Assembly: GCA_012034765.1 (NCBI GenBank)
Contig: JAAUOU010000019.1
Span: 1-47,945, forward strand
Source of the DNA: Pleurocapsaceae cyanobacterium CSU_1_1
GTDB taxonomy: Bacteria > Cyanobacteriota > Cyanobacteriia > Cyanobacteriales > Xenococcaceae
DNA: 47,945 nt
Reading direction: 5' to 3'
Shown: one piece after another, positions 5,244 through 42,267 of the stretch
Layout: every line of letters begins with the position of its first letter
How positions within the stretch are numbered: the stretch's first letter is position 1
Made by a program: the position numbers and the translations under genes
The notes under the pieces: model-generated
What the model saw: the letters and a program-made list of their open reading frames with translations, nothing else
The model's database searches: none
What the model was told of the DNA's origin: nothing

Positions 5244-5675
5244 TCAACCAAAATAATCATTTTTCATAATTTGCTCTATCTCAACAAAACCATCTTCAGG
5301 AATCTCAAAGTCAAATACCATAGTAGCGATCGCATCTTGATAAATATCAAAATATTCAGATTTCAGATAATTCTTCAGGCTGGGATTTTTCTTGAGGATT
5401 CGATTAATACGATTGCGAAAGTTAACAACTTCTTGCTGCCATCCTTTGCGAGATCTTTCTACTTCCGAATCCCAGTATTTTAGCTTGAGGATATGCTCAA
5501 TCAATCGCTGCATATAACTGTCCAGCGATCGCTTTTCTGACTTTCCCATATCGTCGATTTCATCTAACAGATTATCCCAGTCCATATTTTCAAAATCTTT
5601 ATTTTGAATAGCTTCTTTTGTCTTTTCAATCCAAAGGTTAAAGTCGCGATCGTGTAACTGTTTTAAATTAATCAT
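5244..5675 (-). CDS. DUF29 family protein
   Basis: A 143-residue protein of the DUF29 family, which is widely multiplied in cyanobacterial genomes. It has the typical N-terminal HDRDFNLWIEKT-like start, WDNLLDEIDDMGKSEKRSLD and the LIEHILKLKYWD helix. Biochemical role is unknown. Its ATG lies only 5 nt from the first readable codon of a truncated flavoprotein gene on the opposite strand, so the junction at about 5680 is probably a rearrangement point. It has no close partner gene. Confidence 0.8.
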   Translation of the reverse strand: MINLKQLHDRDFNLWIEKTKEAIQNKDFENMDWDNLLDEIDDMGKSEKRSLDSYMQRLIEHILKLKYWDSEVERSRKGWQQEVVNFRNRINRILKKNPSLKNYLKSEYFDIYQDAIATMVFDFEIPEDGFVEIEQIMKNDYFG

Positions 5676-5680
5676 GATGT

Positions 5681-6151
5681 TTGATTTTTTTTATTAGTTC
5701 TAGCAGCGATAAAGGACAAGACATTGAGCATAACGCAAAAGTAGCAGGAAATTTATGGTGGCGTGAAAGCGTGCAGCAAATACATTTTCGTGGTTATGCT
5801 GCTATTGCGCCTCCGTTCAAGTCCGATCTATTGTGGCAAACGCGATCGCGCAGCGCTCAAGCAATAGCAGTCTGTTCCCAGCAAAGTCAGCCTTTAATGT
5901 CAGAGTTGGATTTTAAGACCAAAGTGGCAGCTTTGGAAAGTTCGGAGCGAATATTATCACGTCCCTTAAGTTGGAATGCCTATCAAATTACGCCGATTGA
6001 ATATGAATTTTGGCAAGGAGATGAGAGTAGACTACATCAAAGACTTCGCTATAGTTTACAAATACCCAATGTCGACTTTGCACAAGCATCAAATCTTGCA
6101 GAATTAGTCATAAAATTGGGAATCTGGACTCAGCAACGTTTACAACCTTGA
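5681..6151 (+). pseudogene. 5'-truncated pyridoxamine 5'-phosphate oxidase-like flavoprotein
   Basis: The open frame matches the central and C-terminal parts of PNPOx-family FMN proteins: SSDKGQDIEHNAKVAGNLWW (FMN-binding beta-barrel), the LWQTRSRSAQAIAVCSQQSQ block and the C-terminal EYEFWQGDESRLHQRLRYS signature. A full protein has roughly 55-70 more N-terminal residues, including the first FMN-phosphate contacts; here only a TTG is available and an in-frame stop lies 4 nt upstream of it. The 5' end was probably removed when the DUF29/toxin region moved in next to it. Likely inactive. Confidence 0.7.
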
Positions 6152-6284
6152 GTCAACTGTGACAAGTTAAGAAAAAATTGAAATAGTTGGTTTGATCCGT
6201 TCTGGGATGGGCTGTGTTAGAACGGGTTAATTAATCGTTGAATTTTACAGTAAACAATTTTTTGCTAACTTTGGTTTAAATTTA

Positions 6285-7004
6285 ATGAGCGCAAACAGCA
6301 AGCTAGGAGAAAAACTGCTTTCTCTCCATCGGCAAAAATTTACTGGAGTTTTGACCATCACAGCTCAAAACGATCAACAGCAGTGGGAGATGTTTTTTCA
6401 CCAAGGGCAGTATTTATGGACAGAAGGAGGTTATCACGCCAATCGTTCTTGGCGCAGAAACTTTACTCGCTATTGTCCTGGAGTAAATACAGAAATAGTT
6501 GAACTGAGATACCAGCCACAAATGCGATCGCGATCTTACTGTTTGCTTAATGTCTTGCTTCAGCGAAAAATAATTCAGCGCCAACAGATTCAAGCTTTAA
6601 TTGATAATCTTAGCCAAGAAATTTTGTTTGATTTACTACAAGCAGAATACAAAAGCGTTCTGAATTATAGTGTTGAAACCACTTCGGCTCATTATTTGCT
6701 CAAAGCTGGCTTTAGCCTGTCTTTAATCTCGCTCAATTTGGAACAAATTCTGTTTGAATCCCAGACAGCATGGTCTAAGTGGGGTAGTAAAGGATTAGCT
6801 TCTTGTTCCCCCCATCATGCTCCTTTGCTCCATCGCGGTCAAGATTTACAACAGCAGTTACCAGACTTGATTGTTGCTAATATGTCTCGCTTATTAAATG
6901 GAAAACAGACCCTCAGAGATTTAGCAGTCAAAATGGATAAAAATGTTTTAGATCTTACCTGTGGCATCATCCCCTATTTTTCAAAGGTTATCTACGGTTG
7001 TTAG
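6285..7004 (+). CDS. PATAN/DUF4388-domain protein, PatA-like but without receiver domain
   Basis: A 239-residue protein resembling the N-terminal PATAN region of cyanobacterial PatA-type response regulators: KLLSLHRQKFTGVLTITAQN, FHQGQYLWTEGGYHANRSWR and a C-terminal LRDLAVKMDKNVLDLTCGI segment. PATAN domains mediate protein contacts in phototaxis and heterocyst signalling. The C-terminal receiver domain normally found in PatA is absent. The last codons look frameshifted at a five-T run near 6977: in the next frame the chain would continue FKGYLRLLEIADLADAQAMK to a stop at 7040. This is either a free PATAN protein or a damaged gene. Confidence 0.65.
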   Translation: MSANSKLGEKLLSLHRQKFTGVLTITAQNDQQQWEMFFHQGQYLWTEGGYHANRSWRRNFTRYCPGVNTEIVELRYQPQMRSRSYCLLNVLLQRKIIQRQQIQALIDNLSQEILFDLLQAEYKSVLNYSVETTSAHYLLKAGFSLSLISLNLEQILFESQTAWSKWGSKGLASCSPHHAPLLHRGQDLQQQLPDLIVANMSRLLNGKQTLRDLAVKMDKNVLDLTCGIIPYFSKVIYGC

Positions 7005-36034: not shown

Positions 36035-37279
36035 TTAAGAATTTTCTGTTTTATCCGTAGGTAGCAAAATTTCCACCCATGCTCCACCTCCAAGAGGATG
36101 ATTCTTAGCAGAAATTGTACCGCCATGAGCGTGAACAATTTCCTCGACAATAGCCAATCCCAATCCGCTCCCATCAGGAGAATTGCTGGGTTCTCTGGTA
36201 CGAGATTTATCTCCTCGATAAAGTCTTTCAAAGATGAAAGGAATGTCTGAATTATTAAACCCTGTACCCGAATCAATTATATCAATCTTAATTTGGTTTT
36301 TAAGATTAGATTGTGTTGACGACTTAGATACTTGAATTAAGATTTGTTTGCCGATTGAATTATGCTTGATGGCATTATCTAATAGATTGAGAAAAACTTG
36401 AATTAAACGAGAGCGATCGGCGCAAATGCTTATTTGGCGATCGCCATTATAAGCTAGAGTTACTTCTTTGCGTTTGGCGATCGGTTCTAGGGTTTGCCAC
36501 ACTGACTGCACTAAATCGTATAGTCCGACCGTTTCGTATTTTAAAACTTGATTTGGTGTCGCCTGAAGCTGAGTTAAATCTAACCACTCTTGGACTAATT
36601 CAATCAGCCGATTGGTTTCTTTCCGCATTTGCTCAACCCAGCGACGTTCAGGATCTTGTAAGCGTCGAAGCAAATTCTCCGCGACTAGAGAGATTGATGT
36701 CAGGGGAGTGCGTAGTTCATGGGTGAGATCGGCAAAAGTGCGATCACGAGACTGGGATAATTCCAGCAAAGGTTGACGGTTTTCGATAAATACTCCTACC
36801 TGCTGTTTTGGCAAGGGAAATCCAGATCCTTTAAGAGCGATCGATTCTACTATTTTTTGTAGCGGTTGGTCGCTATTTGTTTGTAACTCTGGTTGTTGAG
36901 GCGAGACGTAACGAGTGAAATAAAAGATCCATTCTTTGGTCTGAGAACGTTGAGAATTGCGAGTTGATTCAATTAGCTGATCGAGATCGTAGGAACGAAC
37001 TAACTCCAGCAGTAAGCGCACTCGCAGCGATCGCCGAGAATCGATGTGGAGCAGATCTTTTGCCGTTTGGTTACAGCCTAAAAGCTGATTTTCGGCATCT
37101 ACCTGCAAGTAGCCGATCGGAGCTTGCTCAATTAACTCTTGCCAAGCTTGTTTATCCTGTTCGAGCTGTTGACGCTGGCGATTAAGTTCGCTCAATTCTA
37201 AGCGAATCAAAGACTGCAAGGGCAAAGATACATCTTCATTATTTTTATTCCCCGCATAGGAGCGGAGGGTTTTCTTCAA
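36035..37279 (-). CDS. sphS: Phosphate-sensor histidine kinase SphS (PhoR type), N-terminus damaged
   Basis: A kinase with a PAS domain (about 48-120, EQAPIGYLQVDAENQLLGCN), H-box FADLTHELRTPLTSISL (H187), N-box LLDNAIKHN, G1 IIDSGTGF and G2 GSGLGLAIVEEIV. Position next to phoU and domain order support SphS, which phosphorylates SphR in low phosphate. The TTG at 37279 is only the first usable codon of this frame. Upstream the frame continues as LGLLLGLGIYAGQQYRFNQQ, a transmembrane segment, but hits a stop before an eight-A run (37338-37345). One extra base there would join it to a GTG start at 37359 (MTIFSFFLGLLL). Loss of the membrane anchor, or a sequencing slip, is likely. No sphR is present. 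Confidence 0.85.
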   Translation of the reverse strand: MKKTLRSYAGNKNNEDVSLPLQSLIRLELSELNRQRQQLEQDKQAWQELIEQAPIGYLQVDAENQLLGCNQTAKDLLHIDSRRSLRVRLLLELVRSYDLDQLIESTRNSQRSQTKEWIFYFTRYVSPQQPELQTNSDQPLQKIVESIALKGSGFPLPKQQVGVFIENRQPLLELSQSRDRTFADLTHELRTPLTSISLVAENLLRRLQDPERRWVEQMRKETNRLIELVQEWLDLTQLQATPNQVLKYETVGLYDLVQSVWQTLEPIAKRKEVTLAYNGDRQISICADRSRLIQVFLNLLDNAIKHNSIGKQILIQVSKSSTQSNLKNQIKIDIIDSGTGFNNSDIPFIFERLYRGDKSRTREPSNSPDGSGLGLAIVEEIVHAHGGTISAKNHPLGGGAWVEILLPTDKTENS

Positions 37280-37465
37280 CTGTTGGTTAAATCTATATTG
37301 CTGACCTGCATAGATTCCTAGACCAAGCAGTAGCCCTAAAAAAAACTAAAAATTGTCACAAAAAAAATAGTTGTCCAATTGATACCGAGTTAACTCTAAT
37401 CAATTTTATAAAGAATTGGGTTTGGTAGAGTCGAGGGAGGTTATTAAGCCTCGCCCCTCTCTGTT

Positions 37466-37500
37466 AGATCTGGGCGTGCGATTTTCACCGCACCCAGCTC
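37466..37500 (-). ncRNA. Outer intron domain V
   Basis: Reverse strand: GAGCTGGGTGCGGT, a GAAA loop, then ATCGCACGCCCAGATCT. The AGC triad, the GAAA tetraloop and a two-base bulge on the 3' side are those of catalytic domain V. Domain VI follows, with a candidate branch-point A seven nt from the 3' end. Confidence 0.8.
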
Positions 37501-37509
37501 CCGATATTC

Positions 37510-38348
37510 TTAGCTTTTACTTTTGCTCATGTGTATGAATTGGTGGCACGACTGATGTATTGCTACTAAATTCGTTTCTTTCCAATTCTGATGATTTCCG
37601 TCTACGTGGTGTAGATGTACTCTCTGTTCTCCTATGAATTTTAATCCGCAGGATTTACATGAATGGTTCTGCCGTTTAAGGGCTTTAGAGGTTAAACCGT
37701 CATAGAGTACACTATTACGCTTACTCCAGTAGGCTATATCTCCGTCATAAGGTGATTTCTCTCCTTTGACATTGATATGTTTGTTTTCTGAATAGGAAAC
37801 GGTAGGGAATGCTATATCGAGCAATTTCTTGCTAGTGTAACGATTCTGATTCGTTTCTTTGTTGAATACCTTATATGCGCGAGATTCGATAAAATACAAG
37901 GAGTTCCTTGTCTCGTCCATCTTGCAGTACTTGTGGTATTGTCTCCAGCCTCTAACGACGGGGGCTAGTTTGCTAGCTTTAACTGTCGCACCATAGTTTG
38001 AGTTGTTGACGATGGTTTTTACTTTCTTACGGAATGCCTTGTAGTTATCCGCTGAAGGGATACTACGGAACTTGCCGTTTTTCTGGACTTTAAAGTGCCA
38101 GCCGAGGAAGTCAAATCCATCTGTCGCTGCGGTTAGCTTGGTTTTCTTTTCACTGACGTTCATTCCTCTTGCTGCTAGAAGGACGGAGATTCTATCAAGT
38201 ATTGCCTTTGCGTCGTCCTCTGGTCGGATTATGATTAACATATCGTCCGCGTAGCGGATTGATGGTTCTTTTATCCTGCCTTTGTTATCTTTGTATTTGT
38301 GAATACTTTCGATTCCATTAAGGGCGATGTTAGCTAGCAGTGGACTAA
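37510..38348 (-). CDS. Outer intron-encoded protein, C-terminal exon (RT end, maturase, HNH)
   Basis: This is the second part of the outer intron RT, starting in the split codon that gives Val236. SPLLANIALNGIE and SIRYADDMLII (catalytic YADD) belong to the fingers-palm RT. GFDFLGWHFKVQ and LAPVVRGWRQYHKYC mark the thumb/maturase X domain. CKSCG, VHLHHVDGNHQNW and HQSCHQFIH form an HNH nuclease. The open frame continues upstream into inner-intron domain VI (to 38502), but that part is not protein-like. Joined to 40732-41437 it makes a 514-residue protein, so it needs inner-intron splicing to be expressed. Confidence 0.88.
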
Positions 38349-38412
38349 ATGGAGTAGGCACAAAGCGCACCTTCCAATCTTGCGATTGATGTGTTTCTTC
38401 ATACCTCTCCCC

Positions 38413-38445
38413 AAACCCAACGTGACAATTTCTCGTCATTGGGCT
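38413..38445 (-). ncRNA. Inner intron domain V
   Basis: Reverse strand: AGCCCAATGACGA, GAAA loop, TTGTCACGTTGGGTTT. The AGC triad, GAAA tetraloop and CG bulge are as expected. Domain VI after it pairs GAGAGG with CCTACTC, leaving the A bulged as branch point. Confidence 0.85.
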
Positions 38446-38456
38446 TTCCATCATTG

Positions 38457-40118
38457 TTACCTCCGACCAAATGAAGGGGTTTGTGCATGACAGGGACGAC
38501 ATAATAGCTGAAGATTGTCTTCAGTATCTTTGCCCTTGTTTTTGCGCGGTACGATATGGTGTAGGTCTAGTTTACCTAGAGAACCACAACACTCGCATTT
38601 CGCACCCCTAATAGCTTTAATTTTCTCTTTGAGTTCGCGCCACGTAACATTCTCAGCATTACCCATCCAAATTTGGTTAGATAAGGATTTTTCTGGCGGA
38701 TTAGCTGTTGTTGTTCCAAATCCTTCTAAATAAGAATTGTCTGGTGAACGAGAACGGTATTTCTTTAAGGGCAAATCACTCATTTTATAGAGGAAGAGGT
38801 AATTATCCCCGTTGACTACACCAAAGTTCCATCTCTTACCGTTTTCACGGAGCTTGAACCTGTCTAGTACCTTTCGGACGGATACCTTATGCCGTTTCTT
38901 AAGCCAAAGAAATAGTCGTTCATTGACCCAGAAGTCTAGATCTTTGGCTATTTCTTTGACATTAGTATGGCGATAATAGCTAATCCAACCTCTTAGTACT
39001 GCGTTTAGAGCCGAGATTTTTAACAACGGTGAGTCTTGAAACCATTTTCGTCTGGTCATTTCCTTGACCTTAAGCTTTAACTTCTTGATGTTATCCTGTG
39101 CGGGTGTGACCAACATCTTTGGTCGGTCATTAGATTTTACGTATCTTTGAACGTGAAAACCCAGGAAGTCAAAGCCTTGATTTACGTGAGTGATGTGAGT
39201 TTTTTCGGGAGAGAGTTCGAGTTTTAATTCTGACCAGAGGAAGGTCTGGAACTCTTCTTTTAGCCTGACGGCTTCTGCTTTACCACCGTTGGTAAGTAGT
39301 AGCCAGTCATCAGCGTACCGAATCAACGCACAATTTCCCATGTGGTTTGTTCGACGACGTTCTTTCTGTTTGCGATGTAGGTTGCCATATTTGTTCCACC
39401 AGTAGAGGTCTAGCTGGTGAAGGTAGATGTTCGCTAAAATTGGCGAACAAATTGCGCCTTGGGGAGTACCCAATTCGGTGCGCTTAAATAAATGACCTTC
39501 CATGATTCCCGCTTTGAGAAATCGTTCTATCAGATTTAGGAAACGTTTATCAGCTATTCGTTGAGCCAGCAATTTCATCAGTATTTGATGGTGTATGCTG
39601 TCGAATGCTCCTTTGATATCTCCTTCAATAACCCAGTAGTATTTGTTGCGTCGATTGATGTAGCTATCTAATCGGGCGATGCAATCTTGAGTTCTGCGTC
39701 CTGGTCGGAAACCATTAGAACAGTTCAAGAAATCGCTCTCGTAGATAGGTTCTAACACCATCTTTACAAGCATTTGTACTACCCTGTCTTTAATTGTGGG
39801 AATACCCAATGGGCGTTTCTTTCCGTTAGACTTGGGAATGTATATGCGACGGACGGGCAATGGTCGAAACTGTTTCTGACGCAGTTCCGATTCTATCTCT
39901 TTCACAAATTTAGACTTTGCTGCCTCTGATTCAAGAGCTTTCTTGCTGATTCCATCAATTCCTGGTGTCTTAGAACCTTTGTTCGAGAGAATTGTTTCCA
40001 AGGCATCTGCAATCCAATCTCGACGACAAATGAGCCGATAGAGATGGTCAAATTGATGCTCATCTTGAAACTTCGCTTTTATGGCGAGACTACGTTGGGT
40101 TTTGATGGTATCGGACAT
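38457..40118 (-). CDS. ltrA: Inner intron-encoded reverse transcriptase/maturase with HNH
   Basis: A 553-residue group II intron protein. RT motifs: GSKTPGIDGISKKAL, IPKSNGKKRPLGIPTIKDRV, EGDIKGAFDSIHH, GTPQGAICSPILANIYLHQL and LIRYADDWLLL (catalytic YADD). Maturase X domain around LNAVLRGWISYYRHTN, followed by a C-terminal HNH nuclease: CECCG, LDLHHIVPRKNKGKDTEDN and LLCRPCHAQ. All key residues appear intact, so it should promote splicing and retrohoming of the inner intron. It is in domain IV, 107 nt before the 3' splice site. It differs clearly from the outer RT, so the two introns belong to different lineages. Confidence 0.95.
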   Translation of the reverse strand: MSDTIKTQRSLAIKAKFQDEHQFDHLYRLICRRDWIADALETILSNKGSKTPGIDGISKKALESEAAKSKFVKEIESELRQKQFRPLPVRRIYIPKSNGKKRPLGIPTIKDRVVQMLVKMVLEPIYESDFLNCSNGFRPGRRTQDCIARLDSYINRRNKYYWVIEGDIKGAFDSIHHQILMKLLAQRIADKRFLNLIERFLKAGIMEGHLFKRTELGTPQGAICSPILANIYLHQLDLYWWNKYGNLHRKQKERRRTNHMGNCALIRYADDWLLLTNGGKAEAVRLKEEFQTFLWSELKLELSPEKTHITHVNQGFDFLGFHVQRYVKSNDRPKMLVTPAQDNIKKLKLKVKEMTRRKWFQDSPLLKISALNAVLRGWISYYRHTNVKEIAKDLDFWVNERLFLWLKKRHKVSVRKVLDRFKLRENGKRWNFGVVNGDNYLFLYKMSDLPLKKYRSRSPDNSYLEGFGTTTANPPEKSLSNQIWMGNAENVTWRELKEKIKAIRGAKCECCGSLGKLDLHHIVPRKNKGKDTEDNLQLLCRPCHAQTPSFGRR

Positions 40119-40731
40119 ACTTCTTAGTCCTCTCTACTTCCTAGGGCGTATCTCTAACAATGACTGCCGACCTTCGCCATGTACCAGCTTATTTTCTGGT
40201 TCGGACTACTACGACGGCTCTGCCACGCAATAACTACTTCAGTTGCAGTTAACCCAGTCTGAATTCAGACCAGTTATTGCGCTTCCTACGTTCACACAGT
40301 GGTACGTGATTTCATTTAACCGTAGGCTTCCTCTTTACTCCTGTAGGATACAGACCTAGTATCCTCGACATCAGTTGATAATTTATACCCTTGTAATTAG
40401 AGCAATTCAGTCCGAGTAGACAGACCTTTTCGTTAACCGCGTCAAAAGTTAATTTACCTGATGTCTCACGCCATCTCTGTTGTTTAACAGCGTGTCCAAG
40501 GTGTAGGAGCGTCGGACAAGGATTCCTGGCGTAGCCGTAGTTAAATTCCAGGCTCGAAGCCTCATACTGTAACAGAGTGCCAGTACTTTGCTCCTTGTTC
40601 CCCAGGCTTCAAACAGGTTCTCACTCATTGTCCCCTGCCTGCTGGGTTAGCCTTAGTACATTAGGGAATGTACTATCTCTTGGTAGTTTTCGCTCTCCTT
40701 GAGCATTACCACTGTGCGCTTCGCAGCGCAC

Positions 40732-41437
40732 CCAACCCACCTTGAGGTGTTCCTTGGTCGGGGAAACCTATATTAGTTCCTGCTTTGAGACATCTGAAGA
40801 TGCCAAGCTTTAGCCTTGAAGGGGCAATTATGTTGTCCATGATTGCTGAGTGGTTAATCTTGTCGAAGCATTTTTCGATGTCGAGTTCGATAACTCGTTT
40901 ATCTTTTCCGTTACTCATGCTTCTGAGGTTGTTGAATAGAGTTTTCTGGGCATCGTGTGCTGCCCGTCCTATTCTAAACCCGTAGCTTCTTGCATGGAAA
41001 GTTGCTTCGTGTGCTGGTTCGAGTGCATATTTTGCTAGGCATTGCCAAGCTCTATCTGCTATTGTTGGCACTTTGAGTATTCTGATAGTTCCATCTTTTT
41101 TAGGGATAGGAATTTCTCTTAAGCCTTGGTGCTTCCAATTGGCATGGTTTTTAGCTAATTTCTCTTCAAGCTCGAAGCGTTCTTCAAACGTGAGGGATTT
41201 TTGACCGTCTATTCCTGCCGTTTTCTTACCAGTGTTTAACTGTGTTACTTGTTGGATTGCTAGAAATCTAGCAGCCTGGGATTTGAGAATCAGTTTTTGA
41301 AGTGACTGAGCTTTGCGCTTGTCGCCAACTTGAACTGCTTTGAACACTCGTCTTTGTAGCCTGAAAAGGTCTTGATGGAATTTCTTCCAATCTTGATTTT
41401 CCCAAAGTTCACTAGCGTTTAAGCTGTGTCTAACCAT
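40732..41437 (-). CDS. Outer intron-encoded protein, N-terminal exon (RT fingers)
   Basis: The first 235 codons plus one base of the outer intron RT: KTAGIDGQKSLTFEERFELE (RT0/1 region), IPIPKKDGTIRILKVPTIAD, ARSYGFRIGRAAHDAQ, RVIELDIEKCFDKINHSAI and GFPDQGTPQGG, where the inner intron interrupts. Unspliced, the frame adds only eight residues (GALRSAQW) and stops at 40706, giving a truncated RT without YADD. GGAG lies about 9 nt before the ATG. The sequence type resembles chloroplast-like lineage intron proteins (from memory). Confidence 0.9.
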
Positions 41438-41985
41438 AGTCTGCTCCGAGTTGTGTTTTCTGAATACCTCAAGGCAATTACGCCTTGTCCTACCCGAATT
41501 TAAGGAATTAATCCTCTCGTCTGGTCTACCGTGGTTTCGACTTGCCCACAGACCTTAGACTCGTTTTTATTCGTTCCATCCTTCGATTGTTTTGTCTCTT
41601 TAGACGTAGCCAATTCAACCGCCAGAACCCCTTACTCTTGCCGTTGTTGGCTTTAATACACGGCGGGATACTAATCTCTGGCAAAGTCAGTCATTAGACT
41701 TGCGACTGCTTGGGCGTAGGTTGCTTTTTTTAGGCTCTGTTTCGTCGTGGAGACTCCCTGTTAACGCCAGTGTCATTTGCAATTAATGTCTGTTTGCGTC
41801 CTGTTCCCAGCTTCGCTCTACAGATTTCCGAGTCTGTTCGACGTGGGCAGATAAGGAGTTACCTTTGAGTTTAAGGAGTAGGACTTTCACCTACATCAGA
41901 GGGATAGTTAAGCTAGTCTTGGGAGACTTGGCTCTAGTGTTTATTTACGGACTAGATACCGTGATTCACACTAAACGAATCGCAC
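41438..41985 (-). other. Outer intron 5' RNA domains
   Basis: About 550 nt between the intron 5' end and its protein start, without ORFs. It should hold domains I-III. The equivalent part of the inner intron is 40119-40731. Confidence 0.65.
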
Positions 41986-41988
41986 AAA

Positions 41989-42005
41989 ACCTCGCCCTTT
42001 AGGGC
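41989..42005 (-). terminator. Stem-loop directly upstream of the outer intron
   Basis: Reverse strand TCGCCC-TAAA-GGGCGA followed by GGTTTT and then the intron GTGCG. It looks like a terminator of the truncated GNAT gene and serves as the insertion site of the outer intron. Confidence 0.55.
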
Positions 42006-42017
42006 GATTCTTGATGA

Positions 42018-42227
42018 TCAATATATACTAAAACCAAACTCTTTACCCTCATTCCAACGTTGAGGTCTTGTTTTGATCCATGCTTCAGTTTCGTCAATTG
42101 TATAGTTAGGATGACACCAAGGTAGCCAAGGATAAACACGGTCTATTGAAACCTGAATAGCTTCAAATAGTAGAGGAATATCTTCAGTAGTATATTTTTG
42201 TAGAACAATTTCGTCAGATTCCAGCAT
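42018..42227 (-). pseudogene. Truncated GNAT acetyltransferase (RimJ/RimL-like)
   Basis: A 69-residue N-terminal part of a GNAT protein: VLQKYTTEDIPLLFEAIQVS, VYPWLPWCHPNYTIDETEAW and GKEFGFSIY, all typical of ribosomal-protein-N-acetyltransferase-like enzymes. The rest, including the acetyl-CoA loop, is missing. In another frame DHQESP follows, pointing to a one-base shift before the stop. The sequence then runs into a hairpin and the outer intron. Most likely inactive. Confidence 0.65.
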
Positions 42228-42267
42228 AAATGCAAAGATATGAGTATTTTGTCTGTAATTTGCAGTT

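Follow-up and report, generated by a model that had tools for sequence, protein, structure and literature searches.

A group II intron lineage probably specialised on the reverse transcriptase gene of other group II introns in cyanobacteria

The window analysed here, a stretch of 47,945 nt that represents the complete contig C23 of Pleurocapsaceae cyanobacterium CSU_1_1 (a genome of 4.6 Mb in 196 contigs), carries one group II intron inside another. The inner intron is very probably (probability of about 0.8) a complete mobile group II intron belonging to a lineage specialised on the reverse transcriptase (RT) gene of other group II introns. In the RTs of several other intron types, its relatives are found at the same codon; the insertion point, between the first and second bases of the codon preceding Ser-Pro in RT motif 4, is shared by 24 of the 26 readable loci.

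In the mechanism proposed, the lariat-protein complex of the inner intron would find its target through a conserved EBS2 (CACCUUG) that pairs with the Gln-Gly-Gly codons, and through a variable EBS1 that pairs with the six bases following the EBS2-paired codons. The intron would reverse-splice into the top strand, its HNH domain would cut the opposite strand, and its RT would copy the intron in. The host would make its own RT-maturase only once the inner intron had been spliced out, and would in this way depend on its parasite; a host moving as spliced RNA would give rise to a new copy without the parasite, that is, to a fresh target. We infer retrohoming of the inner intron from its intact parts, from near-identical copies in different hosts, and from the rule governing its site; for the class as a whole, retrohoming that proceeds through the pairing of EBS with IBS, reverse splicing, and target-primed copying is an established mechanism (for example, PMC2882425).

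The nested locus in the window

All features of the locus lie on the minus strand. The outer (host) intron, GTGCG...CTCTAC, extends from 41985 to 37425 and measures 2,178 nt without the inner (parasite) intron, GTGCG...CTCCAT, which extends over 2,383 nt from 40731 to 38349 and has both ends in common with related introns. The first part of the outer RT gene (41437-40732; 706 nt, or 235 codons plus one base) contains RVT_N and positions 1-122 of RVT_1 and ends in GTPQGGL-G, while the second (38348-37510; 839 nt including the stop) reads SPLLANIAL...YADD and contains positions 126-205 of RVT_1 together with GIIM. The cut falls after GTPQGG-L and one base, at codon 236 of 514, and the gap is filled by the inner intron. 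A sequence-only reading of this DNA had given these intron coordinates and exon lengths, all of which proved exact to the base, and had claimed that deletion of the inner intron restores the RT; joining the flanks confirmed this, yielding a single 1,545-nt frame of 514 residues that reads GTPQGGLVSPLLANIAL.

The protein encoded by the inner intron (40118-38457; 553 aa) comprises RT (RVT_1), maturase (GIIM), and HNH endonuclease domains, and it matches NCBIfam TIGR04416 with 383 bits (cut-off 300); the order of the elements would place it in domain IV. Domains V/VI were identified with the Rfam model RF00029, whose gathering score is 40, at 38448-38349 in the inner intron (60.9 bits) and at 37502-37425 in the outer intron (54.4 bits), and the matches end precisely on the proposed 3' ends of both. 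The bulge of domain VI holds an A in each intron, seven bases from the 3' end (38355 and 37431), in agreement with the domain V hairpins and branch-point candidates previously proposed. Failure of covariance models to find domains I-VI had been named beforehand as a refuting outcome; domains V/VI were recovered in both introns, while for domains I-IV the Rfam D1-D4 models, run with a threshold as loose as E<=1, gave zero matches within 37300-42200. A consensus structure computed from the 5' parts of 13 inner introns looks like domain I in outline. The Cys/His-rich C-terminal end of the outer protein appears HNH-like when read by eye, and no Pfam model matched it.

The inner intron therefore has the GUGYG start, AY end, domain V, and domain VI with a bulged A by which group II introns are recognised, and the outer intron has the corresponding ends, domains V/VI, and a two-part RT-maturase that joins in frame. 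At the sequence level, an intron lies inside an intron, and the outer frame becomes whole again once the inner intron is removed, which supports the assignment of the locus as a twintron with two RT proteins. Left unexcised, the outer RT frame hits a stop after 243 codons, so production of the outer RT would depend on inner splicing. In this respect the dependence of the outer intron on the inner one, as formerly suggested, follows from the frame; that the inner intron actually splices out is presumed.

The 5' exon of the outer intron (42025-41986) bears the hairpin CGCCC-TAAA-GGGCG, and two intron-less copies of these 40 nt are present elsewhere in the genome (C153:15828-15867 and C136:15738-15777), followed downstream by AAACCCATC or CGACCCATC. 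A second copy of the outer intron on contig C54 has a 3' exon that agrees with AAACCCATC over 19 nt and has its first 8 nt, CAAACCCA, in common with the outer 3' exon of the window. The boundaries of the outer intron are supported by these intron-less copies and by the C54 match. Contig C96 of the same genome holds an intact relative of the outer intron, with 521 codons and an empty motif-4 site. The recurring hairpin of the 5' exon looks like an insertion-sequence end. Positions 1-127 of C54 are identical to the outer 3' end plus the 8 exon bases, beyond which the flank differs. An acetyltransferase-like N-terminal fragment (42020-42230), read by eye, runs into the hairpin exon of the outer intron. 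At 36035-37360 there is a sensor-kinase-like ORF, PhoR/SphS-like by eye, with an uncertain start and a T run near 37345 that may hide a frameshift.

The inner-intron lineage and its target

Members of the lineage were collected at 28 loci (the window, L013-L026, L040, L063-L073, and L078, with the duplicates adjacent to L068 counted once), and 26 of these are readable, L023 and L025 being fragments with an unreadable junction. The target context is GTPQGG-x|x-SPLLAN or a close variant in a flanking RT, visible on both sides at 16 of the 24 motif-4 loci and on one side at 8. The two exceptions, L017 and L024, have no recognisable RT around them and sit at the target-like stretches CCGCAAGGTGACGTTAG and ATGCCGCAGGGCAGGGTAA. 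The 24 loci do not amount to 24 independent insertions, L063 and L064 being 98.9% identical over 5.3 kb including flanks, and L069 may correspond to the opposite end of either L070 or L071. The split RTs of relatives had been named as a test of the restored frame, and the frame was found to continue across the junction into SP in 15 of the 16 two-sided RT hosts, with a one-base shift in L065. At least 238 open codons before and at least 259 after the junction, a cut chosen after the values were seen, are present in seven of these hosts (the window, L015, L040, L063, L064, L066, and L078). The remaining 9/16 fall below it, L068 (232/212) and L019 (221/213) by the smallest margin, and mutual dependence has therefore often already been lost. 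The hosts' own domains V/VI were located downstream in 14 of 17 loci examined, and also in L078. As for the parasites, all nine inner proteins in alignment A1 are open over 551-570 aa, and defective copies are L024 (longest frame 443 aa), L021 (without a start), and L068 (a 1.28-kb insertion). The segment of about 1.28 kb that interrupts the inner-family protein gene of L068 lies at 5338-6618, and the matches flanking it overlap by 5 bases.

The searches behind this collection do not yield frequencies. A scan of the genomes of 84,980 species with six peptide patterns from the window's inner protein, which picks up close relatives only, returned 14 loci, in cyanobacteria and in one Flavobacterium-labelled record (L020). 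The latter member lies on a 236-kb contig (NZ_JAPQNS010000013.1) whose base composition and ORFs were examined; it may reflect a cross-phylum transfer or a mislabelled or contaminant contig. Within the family, 10 of 27 genomes matched (up to 11 candidates scored per genome; matches of 35-59 nt in G388, G396, G398, and G401 uncounted), with five full copies in G395 and more in G401, G403, and G388; the loci in G404, G403:C325, G390, and G394 are the same as L013, L014 (Pleurocapsales cyanobacterium LEGE 10410), L015, and L023, as judged from shared 400-nt probes. A DNA search across the phylum matched 7 of 386 genomes, with 2 candidates scored per genome and five genomes with matches of 32-153 nt uncounted, and clear members were seen only in the window's own genome and in G185. 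The protein search of the order, with up to 5 candidates scored per genome, matched 4 of 243 genomes, the window's own included, and was the source of G457, discussed below. Among plasmids, at least 5,000 records match the inner protein, two at 60-80% and the others lower; the two best are both from Leptolyngbya boryana, with the intron at the same position, and one of them is L040, a circular record. None of 83 phage records reached 60% identity, and a viral contig collection contained three loci at 28% identity only and 0 matches to the pattern scan.

The bases preceding the junction suggest how the target could be recognised. The IBS2 candidate CAAGGTG (-13 to -7; 40744-40738) lies over the Gln-Gly-Gly codons of motif 4 and is complementary at 7/7 positions to the EBS2 candidate CACCTTG of the inner intron (40503-40497). 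When 17 inner 5' parts were aligned, CACCTTG was the best pairing column against -13 to -7 (mean 6.0/7 over 15 pairs). It occurs in 17/17 inner 5' parts of sufficient length, five of which are G395 near-copies, and in only one of 19 flanking upstream parts, four of them shorter than 850 nt and those of L017 and L024 not from RT hosts. The conserved CACCUUG is probably the EBS2, complementary to the Gln-Gly-Gly codons, and this pairing would explain how one intron could recognise many RTs; part of the IBS2 complementarity, however, is a consequence of the protein motif, which constrains the bases at these positions. As an alternative EBS2, hairpin A of the inner domain I was considered and rejected, its pairing being unsupported.

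For EBS1, the candidate is CTACTC, in a hairpin loop at 40419-40414, which pairs at 5/6 positions with the IBS1 candidate GGTTGG (-6 to -1; 40737-40732). The assignment of this variable hexamer as the partner of -6 to -1 is a modest one: the register is shared by 8 of the 14 best combinations in a scan of up to 1,680 (best z of about 3.5), and it was picked on, and then scored with, the same data. Mean pairing of the hexamer was 4.5/6 at the occupied site against 2.3/6 at the intron's own RT site, with 2.25/6 estimated for chance pairing with equal bases. Pairing was better at the occupied site in 13 of 15 comparisons, equal in one, and worse in one, counting L017, L024, and three G395 rows that share one hexamer. 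The lineage's own RT site reads QGA/G-[IV]-C, not QGG-x-x, with the EBS2 match mostly kept and the EBS1 match lost; a fair reading of this variant is that it could spare the lineage from itself, and L026 is a case where such self-sparing fails. The empty site on C96 pairs with the inner intron at 7/7 positions for EBS2 and 5/6 for EBS1.

Kinship of inner introns and hosts, and other explanations

The hosts are diverse, with N halves 21-83% and C halves 25-77% identical among those that are not identical. The five inner copies in G395 show 0-2 differences over 2,382 nt, yet identity between the N halves of their hosts falls to 63%; L063 and L064, which are among the five, are copies of one larger segment. 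In an unrooted tree of RT N parts (34 rows, inner and host rows only), the inner lineage forms one side of a branch (100/99) and the hosts the other; the tree is silent on host polyphyly among group II RTs, as no other RTs were included. The inner RT of the window groups with L013 and the G395 copies, and its host RT with L071 and L016; likewise, the inner RTs of L019 and L020 form a sister pair (100/100), which their hosts do not. The kinships of inner introns and hosts disagree, in a tree where four host rows have long branches and an unsure placement. The lineage has also entered itself: in L026, from Chlorogloea purpurea, one member is followed, directly after its 3' end, by the 3' half of the RT belonging to another member, with the junction at the motif-4 codon. 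This RT half overlaps the start of contig L022 exactly over 141 nt and lies there inside a third RT, so that there are probably three levels of nesting, the innermost copy being truncated.

An identical codon everywhere would also result from one ancient insertion in an ancestral host RT, inherited since without repeated homing, and the separation of the inner lineage from the hosts on the tree is compatible with such co-divergence. This is nevertheless improbable, given the disagreement between inner and host kinships (for example, in the window and in L019/L020), nearly identical inner copies in hosts just 63-76% identical, the empty site of an intact relative that the genome of the window carries on C96, and the location of the L026 copy in the lineage's own RT. 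Vertical inheritance of a single twintron was rejected on the kinship conflict and on the near-identical inner copies in divergent hosts. Spread in part by homologous recombination between twintrons and hosts, in place of retrohoming, is unlikely too, yet it is the least unlikely of the alternatives. The host of L066 has an N half 100% identical to that of L063 and a C half only 61% identical, and that of L019 combines the N half of one host type with the C half of another, which means that twintrons also recombine with one another, provided that the two cases are not assembly errors; the larger duplicated segment of L063/L064 is of the same tendency. However, recombination alone cannot put an intron into a host type that has none, and a first insertion is needed in each host type because near-identical copies sit in different hosts. 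The chimeric junctions lie at 1392/3778 in L019 and at 2730/5111 in L066.

Mobile debris might also have become nested by chance in a harmless place, a possibility in keeping with the 9 of 16 two-sided hosts that are not fully open and with the position of the outer intron itself at a repeated sequence. Such a dead pile-up is very improbable in view of the identical codon and phase in 24 of 26 loci, positions that are non-random, and of the intact state of the window's two proteins and both sets of domains V/VI. Hardly credible at all is a chimera of two introns created by assembly, which the 196 contigs of the genome and the recurrence of the outer 3' end at the start of contig C54 might have suggested; it was rejected because independent assemblies agree, the same arrangement being found on a 4.5-Mb contig of G401, on a 6.3-Mb contig of G457, and on the circular plasmid record L040.

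Known nested introns and other RT motifs

Nested group II introns in Methanosarcina acetivorans were reportedly the subject of work by Dai and Zimmerly in 2003. The sequence-only reading had named Methanosarcina and Thermosynechococcus among its twintron precedents, correctly so according to the review PMC4424553 and to PMC2882425, respectively. In the former, group II introns are nested up to five deep in what is described as a perpetual homing site, and repeated, site-specific homing into other group II introns is likewise read here, from sequence alone, at 24 of 26 loci. That system is archaeal; the hosts here come from several cyanobacterial genera and include several types of RT, and the target consists of the codons of RT motif 4. 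The F3-into-F1 twintrons of Thermosynechococcus elongatus resemble the present ones in their identical inner and diverged outer copies and in a conserved site within an intron ORF; their inner introns are described in the consulted text of PMC2882425 as ORF-less and placed between two start codons, the second of which is usable. In contrast, the inner intron studied here has its own RT, splits the host RT mid-gene, and is not of the T. elongatus type. In the plastid of Porphyridium purpureum, one protein-intact inner intron, mat1f, lies in two different outer introns, as here, but the excerpted text of PMC4476101 reports the outer proteins as truncated remnants and the same intron also in atpB. 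The twintron of Trichodesmium erythraeum is also cyanobacterial with proteins in both introns, and its sequential splicing was demonstrated; according to the passages of PMC4649490 at hand, its inner intron is inserted, within a host gene, into domain I of the host ribozyme, and not into an RT gene.

A literature search, weak in that subscription papers were mostly outside its reach, found no paper on introns at RT motif 4. Introns homing into introns are already known from Methanosarcina; new, as far as checked, is a catalytic-motif target with such breadth of hosts. Inteins and other homing elements settle in active-site codons, a parallel to the motif-4 introns. In this lineage, nature provides parasites of mobile introns whose targets would follow a rule that can be tested, the matching of EBS2 to catalytic codons, and the enzyme of the host intron would depend on the splicing of its parasite. 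Judging from the available text of PMC4028801, the survey pipeline described there drops loci containing two introns, and surveys of this kind therefore miss the nested class with a split RT.

The codons of RT catalytic motifs might constitute a general homing niche, adopted independently by unrelated group II lineages (at motif 4, at YADD in G457, and at FRPG on the L. boryana plasmid); these would be intron hyperparasites that cross host types as the active site fixes the target, with their own RT variant spared. This wider reading is tentative, somewhat short of an even chance. Three times in G457, another RT is split at RVT_1 positions 155-157 and has a full RT between its pieces. The intron responsible (1,868 nt) has a ribozyme of the Rfam type group-II-D1D4-2, unlike the motif-4 inner intron, and is inserted after RYADD and one base. 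Its excision, by eye, would restore RYADDFVIL in two hosts that belong to a single repeated segment. In the third host, which is of a different type and shares 76% identity in its N half with the outer RT of the window, the restored sequence would be RYADDMVII. The intron occupies 2904-4771 of L079 (G457:C1), and identical copies are present in L080 and L081 (reverse strand). The closest relative found, at 54%, is located by eye in G485 at WRVDE of an insertion-sequence transposase, the Asp of which we take to be catalytic, and GATGA precedes the junction there as it does in G457; the YADD lineage is therefore less tied to RTs. The 5' end of this relative lies near 2664 of L089 (G485:C3:232000-239500). 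On the L. boryana plasmid, the host intron of the motif-4 parasite in L040 is itself inside another RT, after SYGFRPG, which gives three levels; the positions concerned in L040 are 3074 and 7964, the exact 3' end being uncertain by one base. Across five genomes with 76 RVT_1 matches, wherever a full RT is flanked by a split pair, the split is at motif 4 or at YADD.
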